Assembly: GCF_010093345.1 (NCBI RefSeq)
Contig: NZ_PDWT01000001.1
Span: 930,001 to 994,000, forward strand
Reading direction: 5' to 3'
DNA length: 64,000 nucleotides
From: Pseudoxanthomonas yeongjuensis
GTDB taxonomy: Bacteria > Pseudomonadota > Gammaproteobacteria > Xanthomonadales > Xanthomonadaceae
Part shown: one piece after another, positions 8,991 through 63,996 of the stretch
Numbering within the stretch: the first letter of the stretch is position 1
Layout: each line of letters opens with the position of its first letter
Position numbers and translations under genes: made by a program
Notes under the pieces: model-generated
Told to the model about the DNA's origin: nothing
What the model saw: the letters and a program-made list of their open reading frames with translations, nothing else
Databases searched by the model: none

Positions 8991-9251
8991 TCAGCGACGC
9001 AGGCCGAGTTTCTCGATCAGGGTCTTGTAGCGCGCGCCGTCCTTCTTCTTCAGGTAGTCGAGCAGGCTGCGGCGGCGGTTCACGAGCTGGAGCAGGCCAC
9101 GGCGGCTGTGGTGGTCTTTCTTGTGGGTCTTGAAGTGGCCGCTGAGCTGTTCGATGCGGGCGGTGATCAGGGCGACCTGGACTTCCGGCGAACCGGTATC
9201 GGCGGGACCGCGCTTGTTGTCTTCAATGACTTTCTGGGTATCGATGGGCAT
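8991..9251 (-). CDS. rpsO: 30S ribosomal protein S15
   Basis: Primary 16S rRNA-binding protein of the small subunit platform, 86 residues as expected. The conserved segments [28 protein letters not shown] and [20 protein letters not shown] are intact. The frame extends upstream, but ATG 9251 ([13 protein letters not shown]) matches the family start. It sits between truB and pnp. Confidence 0.98.
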
Positions 9252-9436
9252 TTTGTTTTCTCTTGAGATGCGTGGCCTGCAGGAACGCGCTGGATCCCTG
9301 GGAAGGGATGCGGTGCGCACCGCCGGGCTCGCCGTTTACGATGGGATGTTGCGAAGGTGATCGGTGAAGATCGAGGATGCCGAAAAGGCCGCGGCATTGT
9401 AGTCGCCGAGGCCTTGCGGAACAAGGGCTTACTTGG

Positions 9437-9632
9437 GCGAGGAGTGAGTGGGGAGGAGTGAGAAGTGAGGTAAGGACGGGCGGAGCACGGGGGCAATATC
9501 AATGGAAACAAGGGCCAGGACGTTCGTACTTCCACTGAAAACACCTGCAAAGGCGCCTTTCTTGCTCAAAAAAGCAAGAATCCCGCCCCCCACTCACTCC
9601 TCACTCCTCACTCCTCCCCACTCACTCCTCGC
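9437..9632. repeat. long inverted repeat, GAGTGAG-type (truB-rpsO gap)
   Basis: Arms at 9437-9470 and 9599-9632 are inverted copies, 33 of 34 bases identical, separated by 128 bases. Each arm carries three GAGTGAG modules with a TGGGGAG spacer after the first. The right arm ends on the first base of the truB stop codon. The spacer has a perfect 8-bp hairpin, TTCTTGCT-CAAAAA-AGCAAGAA, at 9559-9580. The rest of the 9252-9590 gap shows no gene and must hold any rpsO promoter. Confidence 0.85.
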
Positions 9633-10564
9633 TATTGCCAGTTGAACAGGCGCTGCGGCGCCAGCACCCTGCCCTCGTCCAATTGGGCCAGGCCCAGCAC
9701 CCGCCCGGCCGTGTCGTAGACCGCGCACGGGCCCACGGAGCCTGGGATGCCTGGCAGGCGCTGGCCCTGGCTGAAGCGGCGGGCCGCGTCGTCGGTCAGG
9801 TCGATGCGGCGGAAACCGATCAGGCCCGCGTCCAGCGGCAGCAGGCAGGCGTCCAGGCTGCGCTCGTCGCGCTGGGCCAGGGCCTGCAGGGCTTCCAGCG
9901 TCCACATTCGCGGCTCGCGGAACGGCTCCACCCACAGGCGGCGCAACTCCACCACGTGCGCGCCGCAGCCGAGCAGCTCGCCCAGGTCGCGGACCAGGCT
10001 GCGCACATAGGTGCCGGAGCCGCACTCCACCTGCAGGCGCAGCAGCGGGACCTCGCCGTCGAGCAGGTCGGCCGCGGACTGCAGTTCGAAGCGGTGGACT
10101 TCGACCTCGCGGGGTTCCACTTCCACGATCTCGCCGCGCCTGGCCTTGGCGTACAACGGCTCGCCGCCGCGTTTGAGCGCTGAATAGATGGGCGGGCGTT
10201 GCTGGATGCGGCCGGTCAGTTCGCGCAAGGCGGCGTCGATCTGCGGCAAGGTGTATTTGCCGACCGGGCGCTCGCGCAAGGGCTGGCCTTCGGCGTCGTC
10301 GGTATCGGTGGTGACGCCCAGGCGCGCGACCGTGTCGTAGGCCTTGCGCGCGCCGAGCAGGTTGCCGGCGATCTTGGTGGCCTCGCCGAAGCACAGCGGC
10401 AGCAGGCCGGTGGCCAACGGATCCAGGCTGCCGGTATGCCCGCCCTTCTGCGCGCGGAACAGGAACCGCGCCCGCTGCAAGGCCTGGTTGGAACTCAGCC
10501 CCTGCGGCTTGTCCAGCAACAGGATGCCGTCGAGGCGGCGGAATTTGACCTTGGGCAGCGACAT
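9632..10564 (-). CDS. truB: tRNA pseudouridine(55) synthase
   Basis: Makes pseudouridine 55 in the T-loop of elongator tRNAs; 310 residues. The N-terminal signature [18 protein letters not shown] and the catalytic motif [15 protein letters not shown] (Asp about 47) are intact, as is the C-terminal PUA-like region. It follows rbfA in the operon, separated from it by a perfect 29-bp REP hairpin. No strong ribosome site is visible upstream of ATG 10564. Confidence 0.97.
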
Positions 10565-10582: not shown

Positions 10583-10659
10583 TTGTAGGAGCGGGCCTTG
10601 CCCGCGATGCTCTTGGTTGCCCGGGGGAAAAGCATCGCGGGCAAGGCCCGCTCCTACAA
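10583..10659. repeat. REP doublet, perfect 29-bp inverted repeat (rbfA-truB gap)
   Basis: Arms 10583-10611 and 10631-10659 are identical inverted copies of the GTAGGAGCGGGCCTTGCCCG family, with a 19-base spacer. Each arm also has an internal stem (CGGGC..GCCCG). The doublet fills most of the 106-bp gap between rbfA and truB, so it lies inside a transcript. Confidence 0.9.
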
Positions 10660-10670
10660 TTCCCGCACCG

Positions 10671-11051
10671 TCACTTCGCTTCGGTTTCGCCTTCGTCGTC
10701 CACCGGCGGCGGCGGCAGGTCGCGCAGCAGGTTCTCCATGCGCTCGCCGCGATCCACCGAATCGTCGTAATGGAAATGCAGTTCGGGTACGTGACGCAGT
10801 TTCATCGCCTTGCCCAGCTGGTAGCGGATCTGCGGAGACAACTCCTTCAGGTCCTTCACCGCTTCGGCGGACTTCTCCTGCATCAAGGCAGTGACGAATA
10901 CCTTGGCGTGGGCCAGGTCGCGGGTGACTTCCACGTCGGACACGCTGACCGACGGCAAGCCGTGCTCGCGCACGAACTCGTGCACCAGCTTGCCCAGCTC
11001 GCGGCGGAGCTGGGCGGAGACGCGGTCGCTGCGGTGGAAAGTCTTGTTCAT
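10671..11051 (-). CDS. rbfA: 30S ribosome-binding factor A
   Basis: Late-stage 30S maturation factor with a KH-like fold that binds near 16S helix 1, 126 residues. Conserved features are the N terminus ([19 protein letters not shown]), [11 protein letters not shown] and the end of the fold, [19 protein letters not shown] short acidic tail (DDEGETEAK) follows. The gene is downstream of infB, with a perfect 32-bp inverted repeat in the 100-base gap. Confidence 0.97.
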
Positions 11052-11056
11052 AAGTC

Positions 11057-11144
11057 AGGAACGAGCGGAGAGGAACGAGGAACGAGTGAAAGCGGGGAGG
11101 AACGGTGAAAACCACTCGTTCCTCGTTCCTCTCCGCTCGTTCCT
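11057..11144. repeat. long inverted repeat, GAACGAG-type (infB-rbfA gap)
   Basis: Arms 11057-11088 and 11113-11144 are perfect inverted copies (32 of 32), spaced by 24 bases. Each arm has three GAACGAG modules with a CGGAGAG spacer after the first. The element starts 5 bases from the rbfA start codon and ends 7 bases from the infB stop, so it fills the gap and may hide the rbfA ribosome site. Confidence 0.9.
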
Positions 11145-11151
11145 CGCTTCA

Positions 11152-13770
11152 TCACAGCGTGCGCTGCACTTCGATGCGCTCGAAGCACTCGATCTGGTCG
11201 CCCGGCTGCACGTCGTTGTAGGCCTTCACGCCGATGCCGCACTCGGTGCCGTTGCGCACTTCGTCCACGTTTTCCTTGAAGCGGCGCAGCGATTCCAGTT
11301 CGCCCTCGAACACGACCACGCTGTCGCGCAGCACGCGGATCGGCTTGTTGCGCTTGACCGTGCCCTCCACGACCATGCAGCCGGCGACCGCGCCGAACTT
11401 GGAGCTGCGGAACACGTCGCGCACTTCGGCGATGCCGATGATCTCTTCGCGGATCTCCACGCCCAGCAGGCCGGAAGCCACCTGCTTCACCTGGTCGATC
11501 ACGTCGTAGATGATCGAGAAGTAGCGCAGGTCGACACCGTTGGATTCGACGATCCGGCGCGCGGCCGCATCGGCGCGCACGTTGAAGCCGATCATGGTGG
11601 CCTTGGAGGTCAATGCGGAATTCGCATCGGACTCGGTGATGCCGCCCACGCCGGAATGGATGATGTTGATCCGGATCATGTCGTTGGACAGCGCGACCAG
11701 CGCATGCTTCAGCGCTTCCACCGAGCCCTGCACGTCGGCCTTGATCACCAGGTTCAGGACCAGTTGCCCATCGCCCTTGCCGAGCTGCGACATGATGTCT
11801 TCCATGCGGCTGCCGGCGGACTGGACCAGGCGCGACTCGCGGCGCTTGGCGTCGCGCTGCTGGGCCACGTCCTTGGCCAGGCGTTCGTCGGCGACGACGA
11901 CGAAATCGTCGCCCGCGTCCGGCACGCCCGACAGGCCGAGCACCTGCACCGGGATCGACGGGCCGGCTTCGGCCGGCTGGCTGCCGGTTTCGTCGAACAG
12001 CGCGCGCACGCGGCCGTACTGGGTTCCGCAGACCAGGTAATCGCCCTTGCGCAGCGTGCCCTGCTGGACCAGCACCGTGGCCACCGGGCCACGGCCCTTG
12101 TCCAGCGAGGATTCGATGACCACGCCGCTGGCGCGGCCTTCGACCGCGGCCTTGAGTTCGAGCACTTCGGCCTGCAGCAGGATCGAATCGAGCAGGTTGT
12201 CGACGCCGGCGCCGGTCTTGGCCGAGAGCTCGACGAACTGGGTGTCGCCGCCGAATTCTTCGGCGACCACGTCATGGGTCAGGAACTCGTTCTTGACCCG
12301 GCCTGGGTCGGCGTCGCTCTTGTCCATCTTGTTCACCGCCACGATCAGCGGCACGTTGGCCGCCTTGGCCAGCTTCACCGCTTCGATGGTCTGCGGCATG
12401 ACCCCGTCGTCGGCGGCCACCACCAGCACCACGATATCGGTGAGCTTGGCGCCGCGCGCGCGCATTTGGCTGAAGGCGGCATGGCCTGGCGTATCCAGGA
12501 AGCTGATGACGCCCTTCTCGGTTTCCACATGGTAGGCACCGATGTGCTGGGTGATACCGCCGGCTTCGCCGGTGGCGACCTTGGTCCGGCGGATGTAGTC
12601 CAGCAGCGAGGTCTTGCCGTGGTCGACGTGGCCCATGATGGTCACCACCGGCGGACGCGGGCGCAGTTCGCCCTGGTCGGTCTCGGTGTGCGCGATCAGG
12701 TGGTCCTCGACGTCGCCGCTGTCGGCGCGCACCACGTTGTGGCCGAGTTCCTCGGTCACCAGCGCGGCGGTGTCATGGTCGATGCTCTGGGTGATGGTGG
12801 CCATCACGCCCATCTTGAACAGCGCCTTGACCACGTCGCCGCCCTTCAGCGCGAGTTTCTGCGCCAGGTCGGCCACGGTGATGGTTTCGCCGATGGCGAC
12901 GTCGCGCACGACCGGTGCGGTGGGACGCTCGAAGCCATGGGTGCCGGTGCCGCCACGGGATTGTTCCTGGCGGCGCGGCTTGGGCTTGCCGCGGGTGGTC
13001 GTGCGGCGCGCGCGATCGGCGGCGGAAAGGTGCAGCTGCCCGGCGAAACGCTGGGTGCTGTCGTCGTCTTCCACGCTGGCGACCATCGCGTGCGAACCGC
13101 GGGTCTTGTGCTTGGCCGCGGTGGCGTTGCGGTCGTCCGCGCGCGGCGGGTCCTTGCGTACCGGCGGCTTGGGAACGTGGTGCCCGCTGGGCTTGGCCGG
13201 ACGCGCGGTCTCTTCGCCATCGGCAGGCACGGCGCCGGTGGCGGCGGCGACAGCCTCGGCCTCAGCCTGGATGCGCTCGGCTTCCGCCTGCAGGCGCACG
13301 GCTTCTTCCGCCTGGCGCGCGCGTTCGCGTTCGTCGGCACGCTTCTTGTCGGTTTCGGCGAGGCGCTGCTGTTCTTCGAGATTGCGCTGCCTGGATTCCT
13401 CCAGCTTGCGCAGCGCATCGGCGCGCTCGTCGCTCGGCGGCGCTTCGACTTCGTCGGGCTTGACGTAGGTGCGCTTCTGCCGGACCTCGACGTTGACCGT
13501 GGTCTTGCTGCGACCCGCGGCGACCGTCACTTCCTGCACCTTGCGGCGGTTGAGCGTGATCTTCTTCGGTGCGGCCGCGTCATCGGCGGGCTGGTCGGCC
13601 TTGCCATGGGTGCGGCGCAGGAAACCGAGCAGTTTCATCTTCTCGGTGCTGGTCACGGCCTGGTCTGGGCCGCTGAAGCTCATGCCGGCCTCGGCCAGTT
13701 GCTCCAGCAGTTTCTCGACCGGCGTATTGACCAGTTCGGCAAGCTTGCGGATGGTGGTTTGCTGCGTCAT
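11152..13770 (-). CDS. infB: translation initiation factor IF-2
   Basis: GTPase that delivers formyl-Met initiator tRNA to the 30S subunit, 872 residues. Order: IF2_N domain ([20 protein letters not shown]), a second short N domain (RRKVQEVTV), a long charged coiled coil rich in Glu, Arg and Ala (about residues 110-200), a basic linker, then the G domain from about residue 375 with [19 protein letters not shown] and [10 protein letters not shown]. Domains II-IV follow to the end. It lies between nusA and rbfA as in Escherichia coli. Confidence 0.98.
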
Positions 13771-26403: not shown

Positions 26404-26444
26404 GCTTTGGCTCCCATGGGAACCAGCAATGCGACGATTTTCCC

Positions 26445-26593
26445 CTCTCCCCTTGTGGGAGAGGGTGGCCGAAGGCCGGGAGAGGGTTCGGCTTTTCGCG
26501 CAAGTCCAATCATAGCGGCGAGAGCAAAAGCACGCTTCGCTACGCTCGCGCCCCCTCTCCTGCCCTGCGGGCATCCTCTCCCACAAGGGGAGA
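26445..26593. repeat. paired palindromic element (nuoF-nuoG gap)
   Basis: Perfect 20-base inverted arms (CTCTCCCCTTGTGGGAGAGG) at 26445-26464 and 26574-26593. Each arm is itself palindromic and is followed inward by a second small stem: GGCC-GAA-GGCC on one side and GCCC-GCA-GGGC on the other, then GGAGAGGG. The inner stems differ in sequence but both stay paired. The element fills the only large gap in the nuo operon. Confidence 0.85.
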
Positions 26594-26635
26594 GGAGAGA
26601 ATCCAAAAACCCTCTCTCGATTCTCACGGCCGCAT

Positions 26636-34220: not shown

Positions 34221-34243
34221 GCGAAGGCTCTGGTTTGTTTGTT

Positions 34244-34376
34244 CCCTTCTCCCACCGGGAGAAGGTGCCCAACGGGCGGATGAGGGAATGTGCTCTCAGA
34301 TCGCCGAACAATGCCGATACGGATGACTCCCTCCCTCATCCGGCGCTACGCGCCACCTTCTCCCGGCGGGAGAAGG
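34244..34376. repeat. paired palindromic element (glmM-dioxygenase gap)
   Basis: Inverted arms at 34244-34286 and 34333-34376. Each has an outer palindrome (CTTCTCCC-N3-GGGAGAAG) and then an inner stem: GCCC-AAC-GGGC in one arm and GGCGC-GTA-GCGCC in the other, ending in GGATGAGGG. The plan is the same as in the nuoF-nuoG element. It fills nearly all of the 162-base gap. Confidence 0.85.
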
Positions 34377-34382
34377 AAAGCT

Positions 34383-40380: not shown

Positions 40381-40598
40381 GGAGCGAGAAACGAGTGGAG
40401 AGAAACGAGGAACGAGTATTTGTCATTCCAGCGCGCATTGGAATTCATTTTTACTTTTGTATTTCTACGCACTATAGACAAACAGGGAAAAGGGAAAGTC
40501 AAAATGGATGACCCCCCTTCGCTGTTATAAGGCGCTTTCGGCGTTCGCCGGGATGACGAACACTCTTTCCTCGTTTCTCCCTACTCGTTTCTCGCCCC
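40381..40598. repeat. long inverted repeat, AAACGAG-type (truA-trpF gap)
   Basis: Arms 40381-40429 and 40550-40598 are inverted copies, 42 of 49 bases identical, 120 bases apart. The outer part has AAACGAG, AAACGAG and GAACGAG modules as in the elements at 9.4 and 11.1 kb; the inner ends read GTCATTCC/GTCATCCC, and palindromes ATTCCA..TTGGAAT (40424-40444) and GGCG-TT-CGCC follow inside. The right arm codes for the last residues and the stop of truA. The remaining spacer is AT-richer and shows no gene. Confidence 0.85.
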
Positions 40599-41378
40599 CT
40601 CCGTCACTTCCCCCGGCAGCCCCCACAACGCCGGATACAGCGGCCCCAGGAACACCAGCCCATCCGCGGGCGCCGTCGGTCCCGCCAGCGTGCGGTCGCA
40701 ACCTGCGAGCAGTTCTGCGATCCAGGCTTGCGGCCGCTCTCCCCGGCCCACCATCAGCAGTGAACCGACGATGTTGCGGACCATGTGGTGCAGGAACGCG
40801 TTGGCCTGCACTTCGACGATCACCTGTTCGCCTTCGCGCACGATGGAAATCGCCTGCAGGTCGCGCACCGCGTGCGGGGCCTGGCAATGCACGGTGCGGA
40901 AGGCGTTGAAGTCGTTTTCGCCGAGCAGCGCCTGCGCCGCGCGATGCATGGCGTCGGCGTCCAGCGGCAGGCGTTCCCAGCTTAGCTGCTCCCGGCCCAG
41001 GGCCGGGCGCACCGCGCGGTTGAGGATGCGATAGCGGTAACGCCGCGCACGTGCGGAAAAACGCGCGTTGAAGTCTTCCGCCACCGGCAAGCACCAGCGC
41101 ACGCACACCGAAGGCGGCAGGCGCGTGGTCGTGCCCAGGCTCCAACTGCGCGGCGTGCGCGGTGCGTCGCTGTCGAAGTGCACCACCTGGCATTGCGCAT
41201 GCACCCCGGCATCGGTGCGGCCGGCGCAGACGACCTGGACCGGCATCGCGGCGACCGAAGACAAGGCGTCCTCCAGCGTGGCCTGCACGGTCGGTTCGCC
41301 GGGCTGCCCATGCGGACTGAGCCGTTGCCAGCCGCGGAAATCGCTACCGTCGTACTCGACGCCCAACGCGTACCGCAT
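40581..41378 (-). CDS. truA: tRNA pseudouridine(38-40) synthase
   Basis: Modifies uridines 38-40 in the anticodon arm of many tRNAs; 265 residues. The catalytic Asp is in [11 protein letters not shown], with [12 protein letters not shown] at the N terminus and [16 protein letters not shown] near the C-terminal third. ATG 41378 (MRYALGVEY) is the family start. The C-terminal GARNE and stop are encoded by the adjoining repeat arm. Confidence 0.97.
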
Positions 41379-41400
41379 CAGCAGCGTTTCATTGCTAAGG

Positions 41401-43134
41401 TCAGCCGATCTCGCGCAGCAGCTGCGTCGCTTCGTTGCGCGCGACGGCATCGCCGCCGGCGACCACTTCGTTGAGCAGGTCGCGCGCGGTCTCCAGGTCG
41501 CCCAGGTCCAGGTAGGCGATGGCCAGCTCCAGGCGCTCGCGTCCCGCCGGCGCGGCGTTCAATGGCGCCACGTTCAGGCCGCCATCGCCGGTATGCCAGG
41601 TGGGATTGATCGCGGCCGTGGTCCAGGCCTGCGGAGCCGGGGTGGGAGTTGCCGCGAATCCGGGCTGGTCATCGTCTTCGGCGAGCGTCGCCGGAATTTC
41701 GTCTTCTTCCTGGGCTTCGAGGGTTGCATCCACGGTCGCGGCGGCTTCCTCGCGCGCGCTTCCGGCCGCCGGCATCGCCGCGGCCAACGCCGCGCTGTCG
41801 TAGCCGGAACGCTTGGGGGCGACCGCCACCGACGGCTTGCGGCGGCTGATCAGCCAGCCCACCACCAGGCCGGCCACCAGCAGGCCCAGCCCGGCCCACA
41901 TCCACAACGGCTGCGAAGCATCGCCCTGCGACTTGGCCAGGCGCTGCTGCGCGGCGGCCAGTTCGCTGTCCTTCATCGCGATCAGCTTGCCCTGCTGCTG
42001 CTTGATGCTTTCCAGTTCGGCGACCTGGGCGCGCAGTTCCTGCACTTCCGATTCGCGCGCCGCCAGCTCTTCCTTGGTCAGCGTCAATTGTTGGTTCGCC
42101 AGCATGTCACCCTCGCCTTCGGCATCGATGCCGGATTGTGTTCCCGCCCGGGTCGCCGCACTGGCGGCGGGCGGTGCGATCTCGAGCCTGGCCTCGGCGA
42201 CCTTCGAAGCCGTGGCCGGCGCGCGCGTGGGCGCCGGGGCGGCCATCGATTCGACCGGTTGCGGGATCGGCCTGCGCGCCTGGCGCCATTCGGCCATCTG
42301 CTCGCGGACCAGTGCGGCGGCTTCGGACCTGCCAAGCTGCGCCTGTTCCGCCGACTGCGGTACGCGCAGCACCGCACCCTGCTTCAGGCGGTTGATGTTG
42401 CCGTTGATGAACGCCTCGGGATTGGCCCGCAGCAGCGCCAGCATGGTCTGGTCCAGGCTGTAATCCTGGCCCAGGTCGCGGGCGATCTGCGACAGGGTCT
42501 GTCCGCGTTGCACTTCGATCCGGCCATTGATGGCAGCCGGGACCACGGGCGTCGGGGCCGGTGCGGCCGGGACAGCAGCGGGCGCTGGGGCAGCGGGAGC
42601 GGGAGCGGGAATTTCAGCCGGAGGAGCAACCGGCTCGCCCGCAATGGCGGCTTCCGGTTCGCGAATGATGGTGTTGGAAGGCGGCGGCAACGGCGCTTCG
42701 ATGATCGGCTGGCTGGCCGCGGCCAAGGCACCGGGCGTATCCACCAGCGCCGAATATTCGCGCACCAGGCGGCCCTGGCCCCAATCCACTTCGATCAGGA
42801 AATTGAGCGCCGCGACCTGCACCGGCTCCTGGCTGGTGACCCGCACGACCGCACGGCCATCGTCGCTCAGGCCCACGGCGAAGCTGAGGTTGTTGATCAG
42901 GCCTTCCGGCCGCGCCAGGCCCACGCGTTCGAAGGTGACCGGCGAAGCCAGGCGTACCTGCAGCTGTTCCAGTTCGCCCGGTTCGCTGGAGATGATCGGG
43001 ATTTCCGCCACCAGCGGCTGGCCGGGCTGCGATTTGACCCGGATTTCGCCCAAGCCGAGGGCCATGGCCGCGCCACTGAGCAGCAGCAGCGCCACGCCGG
43101 CCAACCCGCGCAGGCCCCATGAACGGAATTTCAT
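41401..43134 (-). CDS. fimV: FimV/HubP family polar protein
   Basis: Pole-organising, peptidoglycan-binding inner-membrane protein linked to type IV pili, 577 residues (Pseudomonas FimV is over 900). Parts: signal peptide ([15 protein letters not shown]), FimV N-terminal domain ([18 protein letters not shown]), Pro/Ala linker, a LysM motif ([15 protein letters not shown], about residues 205-255), a Gln/Glu coiled coil near 365-395, a membrane helix ([17 protein letters not shown], about 405-425) and the C-terminal FimV domain ([20 protein letters not shown]). Short because the acidic cytoplasmic region is reduced. It is in the conserved asd-fimV-truA order. Confidence 0.92.
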
Positions 43135-44280: not shown

Positions 44281-44356
44281 TGTAGGAGCGGGCCTTGCCC
44301 GCGATGCTCTTACGCGATCTGGCCGAAAGGCATCGCGCCCAAGGGGCGCTCCTACG
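44281..44356. repeat. REP doublet upstream of asd
   Basis: Arm 44281-44306 (TGTAGGAGCGGGCCTTGCCC...) faces 44331-44356 in inverted order. The inner stems differ: GGGC-CTT-GCCC in one arm and GCCC-CTT-GGGC in the other, so each arm keeps its own fold. Confidence 0.85.
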
Positions 44357-46493: not shown

Positions 46494-46914
46494 TCGTCAT
46501 TCCCGCGAAGGCGGGAATCGCTCTTCGCTCTACTGCTTTTTACGTTGAGACCAGAACCCTACCCAACAATGTCATCCCACAAATCCCGCCACTCCGGATT
46601 GAACTCCTGCACCAGCCGCAACTTCCATTCGCGGTTCCACTTTTTCAGCTGCTTCTCGCGAAGGATTGCCGACTCCATCGTGCCGTGCAACTCGTACCAG
46701 GCGAGCATCGTCACGTTGTAACGTCTGGTGAAGCCTTCGACGATATGCTCGCGGTGTTGCCAGGTACGGGCGACCAGGTCGCTGGTGACGCCGATGTATA
46801 ACGTCCCTCGTTTCCCGGTTGCAAGCATGTAGACGGCGGGCTGTTTCACGAGCAACTCACAGGTCACCCGAAAGTCAAAAGCAGGAGCGATTCCCGCCTT
46901 CGCGGGAATGACGA
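46494..46914. mobile_element. 421-bp unit with 30-bp terminal inverted repeats carrying a GIY-YIG gene
   Basis: 46494-46523 and 46885-46914 are perfect 30-base inverted repeats. Each contains ATTCCCGC and GCGGGAAT as a palindrome, the pattern known as dRS3 in Neisseria and common in Xanthomonadaceae. CTGCTTTT next to the inner edge recurs on both sides. The only gene inside is a small GIY-YIG nuclease. No target duplication is visible. Whether the unit moves is inference. Confidence 0.6.
46559..46849 (-). CDS. small GIY-YIG nuclease family protein
   Basis: Stand-alone GIY-YIG domain of 96 residues, the size of UPF0213/YhbQ-like proteins. Core VYMLATGKRGTLYIGVTSDL gives the GIY and YIG elements; Arg in LVARTWQH, Tyr/His in the middle and Glu in TMESAILREKQLKKW are the expected catalytic positions. 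GTG 46849 (VKQPAVYML) fits relatives; an in-frame GTG at 46867 would add six residues. It lies between prmB and aroC inside perfect inverted repeats. Confidence 0.88.
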   Translation of the reverse strand: MKQPAVYMLATGKRGTLYIGVTSDLVARTWQHREHIVEGFTRRYNVTMLAWYELHGTMESAILREKQLKKWNREWKLRLVQEFNPEWRDLWDDIVG

Positions 46915-63916: not shown

Positions 63917-63996
63917 GTAGGAGCGTCCATGGGCGCGAGCTCTTGGGCGGGAGCCTCGAGGCGTTACGAAGAGCTCGCGCCCATGGGCGCTCCTAC
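63917..63996. repeat. REP doublet at the window end
   Basis: Inverted 28-base arms, 63917-63944 and 63969-63996, match at 27 of 28 (GTAGGAGCG...GCGAGCTCTT). It lies just after the DUF885 stop and may end its transcript. Confidence 0.85.

Follow-up and report, generated by a model that had tools for sequence, protein, structure and literature searches.

Dispersed heptamer hairpins at gene junctions of Pseudoxanthomonas yeongjuensis: matching arms in compact elements and probable replacement of elements as units

Three long inverted repeats in the window (the whole stretch of P. yeongjuensis DNA analyzed here, 64,000 nucleotides) are copies of one family in which the two arms are tied within each copy, as had been proposed from the letters alone (below, the sequence-only reading). 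Family members are built of 7-nt modules with a fixed polarity and a characteristic placement between genes; the arms of compact elements match, the heptamer words differ between species, elements are present or absent at otherwise intact sites, and at some shared sites the whole element is different. On balance, we think it probable that copies 1–3 represent a family of short dispersed hairpin elements, similar to non-autonomous mobile elements, which are replaced as units.

Inverted repeats in the window

A search of the window for inverted repeats of at least 30 bp, at least 85% paired and within 300 nt, gave four, three of which are copies 1–3; in 20 dinucleotide shuffles of the window the same measure gave no inverted repeat of 30 bp. 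The copies lie at the rpsO/truB (copy 1), rbfA/infB (copy 2) and trpF/truA (copy 3) junctions, with genes named using NCBIfam, as listed here.

8991–9260, minus strand: rpsO (30S ribosomal protein S15), TIGR00952
9437–9470, plus strand: copy 1 left arm, purine-rich, GAGTGAG modules with TGGGGAG spacer
9471–9598: copy 1 loop, 128 nt
9599–9632, plus strand: copy 1 right arm, pyrimidine-rich
9632–10564, minus strand: truB, TIGR00431
10671–11051, minus strand: rbfA, TIGR00082
11057–11088, plus strand: copy 2 left arm, GAACGAG modules with CGGAGAG spacer
11089–11112: copy 2 loop, 24 nt, with inner box tgaaagc at the border
11113–11144, plus strand: copy 2 right arm, ending 7 nt short of position 11152, where infB stops on the minus strand
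11152–13770, minus strand: infB, TIGR00487
39738–40373, minus strand: trpF (phosphoribosylanthranilate isomerase), best match NF002296, slightly under the model cut-off
40381–40433, plus strand: copy 3 left arm and inner extension, AAACGAG modules with TGGAGAG spacer
40434–40545: copy 3 loop, whose borders hold halves of another inverted repeat (gtcattccagcg / cgggatgacgaac)
40546–40598, plus strand: copy 3 right arm, which runs into the end of truA
40581–41450, minus strand: truA, TIGR00071

Pairing of the arms bears out the earlier figures for copy 1 (33 of 34 positions) and copy 2 (32 of 32). Copy 3 is likewise an inverted repeat, but its reported 42 of 49 becomes 43 of 50 on recounting (arms 40384–40433 and 40546–40595). 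The right arm of copy 1, together with adjoining bases, supplies the truB stop codon (minus strand, the TAG of TAGCGAG), and truB thereby stops early: in its nearest relatives, Pseudoxanthomonas sp. CF125 and P. sacheonensis, with TruB 96–97% identical, the gene continues for about 10 more codons. The folds are very stable, with z = −10.3 for copy 1 as RNA (9420–9650, minus strand) and z = −11.5 for copy 2 as DNA (11040–11160). At the gathering score, Rfam families in the whole window comprise only two tRNAs, with no match on the hairpin copies.

Other dispersed inverted pairs occur in the window. A second family, of the GTAGGAGC type, is found at 10583–10659, 44282–44355 and 63917–63996, and we take it by resemblance to be REP-like. 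A further kind, of the CTCTCCC and CTTCTCCC types, lies at 26436–26603 and 34242–34379, and CF125 has sequence similar to it in the place that corresponds to heptamer element C11:506175. Inverted repeats of the GTCATTCC...GGGATGAC type lie at 46494–46914 and at 40420–40562, around the copy 3 loop, which is bordered by their halves; in CF125 this type is found at three junctions that carry heptamer elements in the window genome (C11:746825, 855538 and 1209287).

The family in the window genome

With copy 1 as query, 85 matches were found in the window genome, in many places and on both strands. A census of stretches picked by sequence matches and of one 400-kb block, excluding loci of fewer than three modules, gave at least 52 heptamer loci (39 paired and 13 solo), none of them inside a gene as called by a codon-usage script that was compared with the window open reading frames. 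Solo arms are less common than pairs, as the sequence-only reading implied, although they are still not rare. The continuous 400-kb block holds 11 loci, eight of them paired, which corresponds to about 108 loci per genome if this block, chosen around the window, is typical. In a sequence-blind scan of the same block, 15 of 16 strongly periodic stems (at least 0.6) have a period of 7; the period-7 stems fall in six places.

Elements measure about 60–260 bp. The module spacing that had been proposed for the copies (module, YGGRGAG spacer, module, module) holds in the compact ones and defines the compact form. The purine-rich strand of each arm is directed at the loop: the purine-first order is seen in 36 of 36 neighboring arrays of at least three modules, a count in which some places appear twice as loci overlap. 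Boxes like gaaagc are frequent at the inner ends, bordering the loop, and aaagc occurs at 15 of 91 arm ends compared to 1.7 expected from single-base shuffling. A small palindrome like AAAGCG-TTACGCTTTC is found just before several solo arrays, in more than one genus (L061:3840, L072:3775, L076:3340, L249, L264 and L270); it could belong to the inner portion of the element or represent a promoter −10 sequence (TACGCT).

Among the 38 paired elements with both neighboring genes called, 30 lie between genes of the same direction and eight between convergent or divergent genes. For 25 of the 30 tandem pairs the stop codon upstream is no more than 10 nt from an arm, with overlap of the gene end in 11; the start codon downstream is equally close to an arm in seven of the 30. 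Most solo arrays adjoin a start or stop codon.

Matching of the two arms

The sequence-only reading held that the two arms change together. Comparison of arm-to-arm with copy-to-copy identity agrees with this for compact elements: both arms could be parsed in 18 of the 39 pairs, and for these the Hamming distance, out of 21, is 1.67 to the own partner and 4.30 across elements, a difference reached in none of 20,000 shuffles. For one of the 18 (C22:232152) the parse took the wrong spacer, an error that counts against the result. For the spacer alone, shuffled within module type, one of 20,000 shuffles reaches the own-arm match. The correlation of module type across the two arms is r = 0.86 for the 20 compact elements but r = −0.02 for the 19 that have an expanded arm, so that the matching of arms is confined to compact elements, and the earlier claim does not extend to expanded arms. 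When whole arms of all 39 pairs are compared, the own sum exceeds that of 9,994 out of 10,000 shuffles, a modest effect, and in this weak test just two of the 39 pairs have their own partner as the sole best-scoring 3′ arm, with four ties.

Two spacers, TGTGGAG and TTAAGAG, are each private to both arms of one element among the loci searched, which implies that one arm was once copied from the other. Conversion, or copying at birth, therefore remains part of the picture. On the mRNA strand, arm mismatches show no excess of G.U (transitions, 35 G.U and 48 A.C, p = 0.19). A G.U bias is the prediction of selection for an RNA fold, and its absence argues against such selection.

Heptamer words in related species

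Pattern matches were counted in 47 genomes; overlapping windows were counted apart, and the numbers are hence not counts of elements. The pattern GAG(NARYGAG)2 (below, NARYGAG) has 355 matches in the window genome, none in CF125 or P. sacheonensis and 422 in the P. composti genome, while GGGANTS has 5, 61, 85 and 44 respectively. GTGANTS has none in these four genomes, and between 46 and 237 in five Luteimonas genomes and one Thermomonas MAG. Backwards controls gave zero or nearly so for GGGANTS and GTGANTS; for NARYGAG the window genome gave 77 and P. composti 25, so not all of these counts are specific, and in the P. gei genome the control is about equal to the count (27 vs. 26). The dominant heptamer differs between close species.

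Numbers for NARYGAG, GGGANTS and GTGANTS are 35, 0 and 0 in P. kalamensis, 21, 32 and 0 in spadix, and 197, 206 and 215 in Luteimonas suaedae; in other Luteimonas they are 0, 147 and 85 (saliphila), 0, 79 and 105 (marina) and 0, 93 and 94 (cucumeris). A rule of one word per lineage fails in places, since several Luteimonas carry two or three words; in four of these genomes (G025, G021, G022 and G012) the numbers are similar, and words can coexist. Heptamer arrays also lie at contig ends, where the assembly breaks, in L. suaedae (G025:C1:1–59 and G025:C8:2–60), and P. broegbernensis has one long CAGCGAG array (G041:C12:43743–43829).

The infB–rbfA spacer, which holds copy 2 in the window, was read in 80 loci of the bacterial family, 45 of them with spacers shorter than 70 nt. 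We tested 28 spacers of at least 70 nt (the window and 27 others), leaving out eight (L146 onward, seven of them Stenotrophomonas). The best period is 7 in 20 of the 28, and the words include GAACGAG, GGGATTC, GGGAATC, GGTGAAG, GGGACTC, GTGATTC and GGGACCC. At this junction both arms differ together across species: the own-arm scores sum to 477, compared to 248 ± 21 on shuffling and a highest value of 353 in 10,000 shuffles. The trpF–truA junction, surveyed in 30 loci, mostly has overlapping genes or an array-free spacer; informative loci are those of CF125 and P. sacheonensis, with solo GGGAATC arrays, and of two Luteimonas, also with solo arrays.

Shared and empty sites

In the 1.2 Mb of CF125 that was searched, 14 of the 52 window-genome elements could be placed; most of the other 38 are probably unplaced because only this 1.2 Mb was covered. 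The 14 face two heptamer arrays of another word, four different inverted repeats (judged by eye) and neither of these in eight cases. We considered whether other inverted repeats tend to occupy the same junctions in CF125, and rejected this: four of 14 is not clearly above the base rate, as 148 of 478 CF125 spacers of 60–400 nt contain an inverted repeat of at least 16.

Two CF125 elements are present in P. sacheonensis and absent from the window genome, gei, the MAG CAN_BIN34 and composti. The spadix genome has GGGACTC words in both arms at the first site, at the same nucleotide, and GGGACCC in both arms at the second, at the same junction a few nucleotides off. At one junction the element is of the GGGATTC, GGGAATR or GGGACCC type in three species, and four others lack it. 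Where sites are empty, the flanks overlap by 10, 8 and 0 bp at one site and by 4, 4, 4 and 5 bp at the other. To explain why CF125, P. sacheonensis and spadix have elements here and the window genome, composti, CAN_BIN34 and gei lack them, either clean loss or repeated insertion is required.

For a comparison with CF125, 32 P. sacheonensis loci were chosen, mostly by likeness to the two CF125 elements; 10 of these mapped to a CF125 stretch, giving 13 comparisons. Nine show the same element, three a different element at the same place, and one no element. Eight two-arm elements were aligned, a set that does not include L326, in which arrays lie either side of a long insert. Five are 92–100% identical, and the other three only 59–66%, with both arms and the loop all different between flanks that are 93–97% identical. 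This two-peaked identity points to replacement of whole elements rather than stepwise compensation, on a small sample; because the loop differs too, the change of both arms at these three sites would be an exchange of the entire element.

In the five near-identical elements, 185 of 194 predicted pairs are unchanged. The other nine, a small sample of which seven lie in one element, comprise six broken pairs, two kept by a one-sided change and one changed on both sides. At L326:1753–2025 (CF125 C6:1438136) a mixed array has different numbers of GGGAGTC units in the two species, indicating slippage at one locus.

Interpretation

The interpretation that we think probable, of hairpin elements replaced as units, can be set out as follows. 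Elements would settle in the junctions between genes, as a rule directly at the stop codon of the gene upstream, and each would spread or be replaced as one unit whose arms already match, which we propose is why arms match. Source elements would differ between lineages, giving different dominant heptamers in close species. After settling, arms would decay mostly without compensation, and single arms may lengthen by slippage, which would explain why the match is lost in long arrays. We infer a copying or exchange process in which arms are matched at birth. The genes lying between clustered elements at six loci gave no mobilizing gene: all nine are host genes with ordinary Pfam domains. The varying flank overlaps are unlike the action of one transposase, and the private spacers would also fit conversion after insertion. 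A bolder version is decidedly unlikely in our estimation: a class of hairpin cassettes distinct from REPINs and MITEs, swapped whole at fixed junctions, with dominant words that differ between close relatives as if written from changing templates, by an enzyme that would also make the arms complementary.

The sequence-only reading offered two causes for the covariation, a conserved fold and arm-to-arm conversion. An RNA hairpin kept by selection in the transcript, with arms covarying by compensatory change, would account for the very stable folds, the matching arms of compact elements and the location of 30 of 38 paired elements between genes of the same direction. It is at odds with the lack of a G.U excess, with arm changes that mostly break pairs in shared elements (six of nine), with the loss of the match in expanded arms, and with the 13 solo loci and the eight pairs between convergent or divergent genes; we regard it as quite improbable, and the closest comparison does not point to a conserved fold as the cause. 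Conversion fares better in part. A continuing DNA-level process, such as template switching within the palindrome, that keeps arms alike after insertion is consistent with mismatches that have no strand bias, and the private spacers keep it partly alive. However, elements shared by P. sacheonensis and CF125 retain uncompensated arm changes, and the loop differs too in all three cases where both arms differ, so that conversion does not explain the whole-element difference; as the continuing cause we consider it rather unlikely.

The remaining alternatives concern what moves or maintains the element. Elements of REPIN type moved by a REP-associated tyrosine transposase (RAYT) would also be paired inverted units between genes, and the window genome has 11 Y1_Tnp matches. 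However, none of the 10 stretches around these matches holds a heptamer array, seven of them have GTAGGAGC repeats instead, P. kalamensis has its 35 NARYGAG matches with no Y1_Tnp match, and inspection by eye of 91 arm ends showed no common GTAG/CGTC tag, making a RAYT origin very improbable indeed. Simple repeats kept because they form G-quadruplexes, like the GGGAATC repeats of Xanthomonas, would share the period, placement and convergent pairing described in the passages of PMC4692102 on those repeats, and in arrays of GAGGAAC or GAGGAGT a GG doublet returns every 7 nt, which might allow a weak two-tetrad form. Against this, the modules lack GGG, the window genome has five GGGANTS matches against 355 for NARYGAG, and the (GTGATTC)n arrays of Luteimonas lack even GG; we find this explanation highly unlikely. 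Finally, the hairpin, however it moved, might be tolerated as a bridge at operon junctions, its fold keeping stop and start close and allowing translational coupling without a Shine-Dalgarno site. A Shine-Dalgarno-like 4-mer occurs in one of 22 genes that start within 25 nt after an arm, compared to 121 of 277 others (p = 1.6 × 10^−4), and the CF125 element C6:1060758 falls between a GGTGG site and the ATG when placed on the empty site. The pyrimidine-rich arm beside the start, however, excludes such 4-mers almost by construction; CF125 allows a comparison for only four of the 22 genes, in one of which the start codon is not aligned, and one of the four has a Shine-Dalgarno-like site there; pairs also occur between convergent and divergent genes. 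We strongly doubt this explanation.

The empty sites make the mobility of elements directly testable, and different words at shared sites of close species constitute a natural experiment on the turnover of repeated DNA.

Comparison with known repeat systems

MITEs are small, non-coding elements with inverted ends. The hairpins resemble them in their inverted ends, in presence or absence at intact sites (four genomes have empty sites for the two CF125 elements) and in a flanking direct repeat at one site. They differ from MITEs in that the arms are tandem heptamers that vary between species. Flank overlaps, taken as a sign of target duplication, vary at the empty sites, and no related transposon was found among the genes between clustered elements at the six loci.

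REP and REPIN elements (PMC3733652) are likewise short inverted units present in many copies between genes. In contrast to them, the window family has tandem 7-nt modules rather than a 20–40 nt palindrome and lacks a common GTAG/CGTC tag, and no heptamer array lies beside genes for Y1-type transposases in the 10 stretches with their 11 Y1_Tnp matches.

The sequence-only reading knew no named family with this consensus, which is nearly right. For the consensus itself, and for words that differ between species, we also found no description in the open-licence literature; array strings gave no matches in open-licence papers, in which long strings are seldom printed unbroken. GGGAATC is reportedly mentioned in strain-typing papers. 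Heptamer repeats as such are nevertheless published. Those with the unit GGGAATC (GGGNATC) were described in Xanthomonas campestris and X. axonopodis pv. citri by Rehm et al. (2015, PMC4692102), whose passages on them report 70 and 75 convergent pairs in the two Xanthomonas and show that GGGAATC oligonucleotides form quadruplexes; there the unit is treated as a simple repeat and its function is left open. The same passages describe GGGGAYT tandem repeats in Nostoc, which are also intergenic with a 7-nt unit and have few inverted pairs (PMC4692102).

The Xanthomonas repeats as presented there are similar to the window family in their 7-nt tandem period, intergenic position and convergent pairs, and in the placement of the G-rich strand next to a stop codon or, in antisense, ahead of a start (PMC4692102). 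By the definition used for Xanthomonas in those passages (at least two tandem units, at least one of them GGGAATC; PMC4692102) the window modules, which are NARYGAG, fall outside, and they likewise lack the four G-tracts of three: GAGTGAG, GAACGAG and AAACGAG contain no GGG. Runs of GGGG are limited to TGGGGAG spacers, which stand singly. Words differing between relatives, matching of arms, spacer modules, empty sites and whole-element replacement are features of the window family that do not appear in the passages of Rehm et al. on the repeats (PMC4692102). Xanthomonas heptamer repeats have so far been linked in that source to quadruplex formation, without known function (PMC4692102). Seen family-wide, the repeats can do without the G-tract but keep their period, polarity, pairing and placement at junctions; the explanation should therefore lie in the hairpin element and its spread, and hairpins whose words vary cast doubt on G-quadruplex formation as the reason for such repeats.
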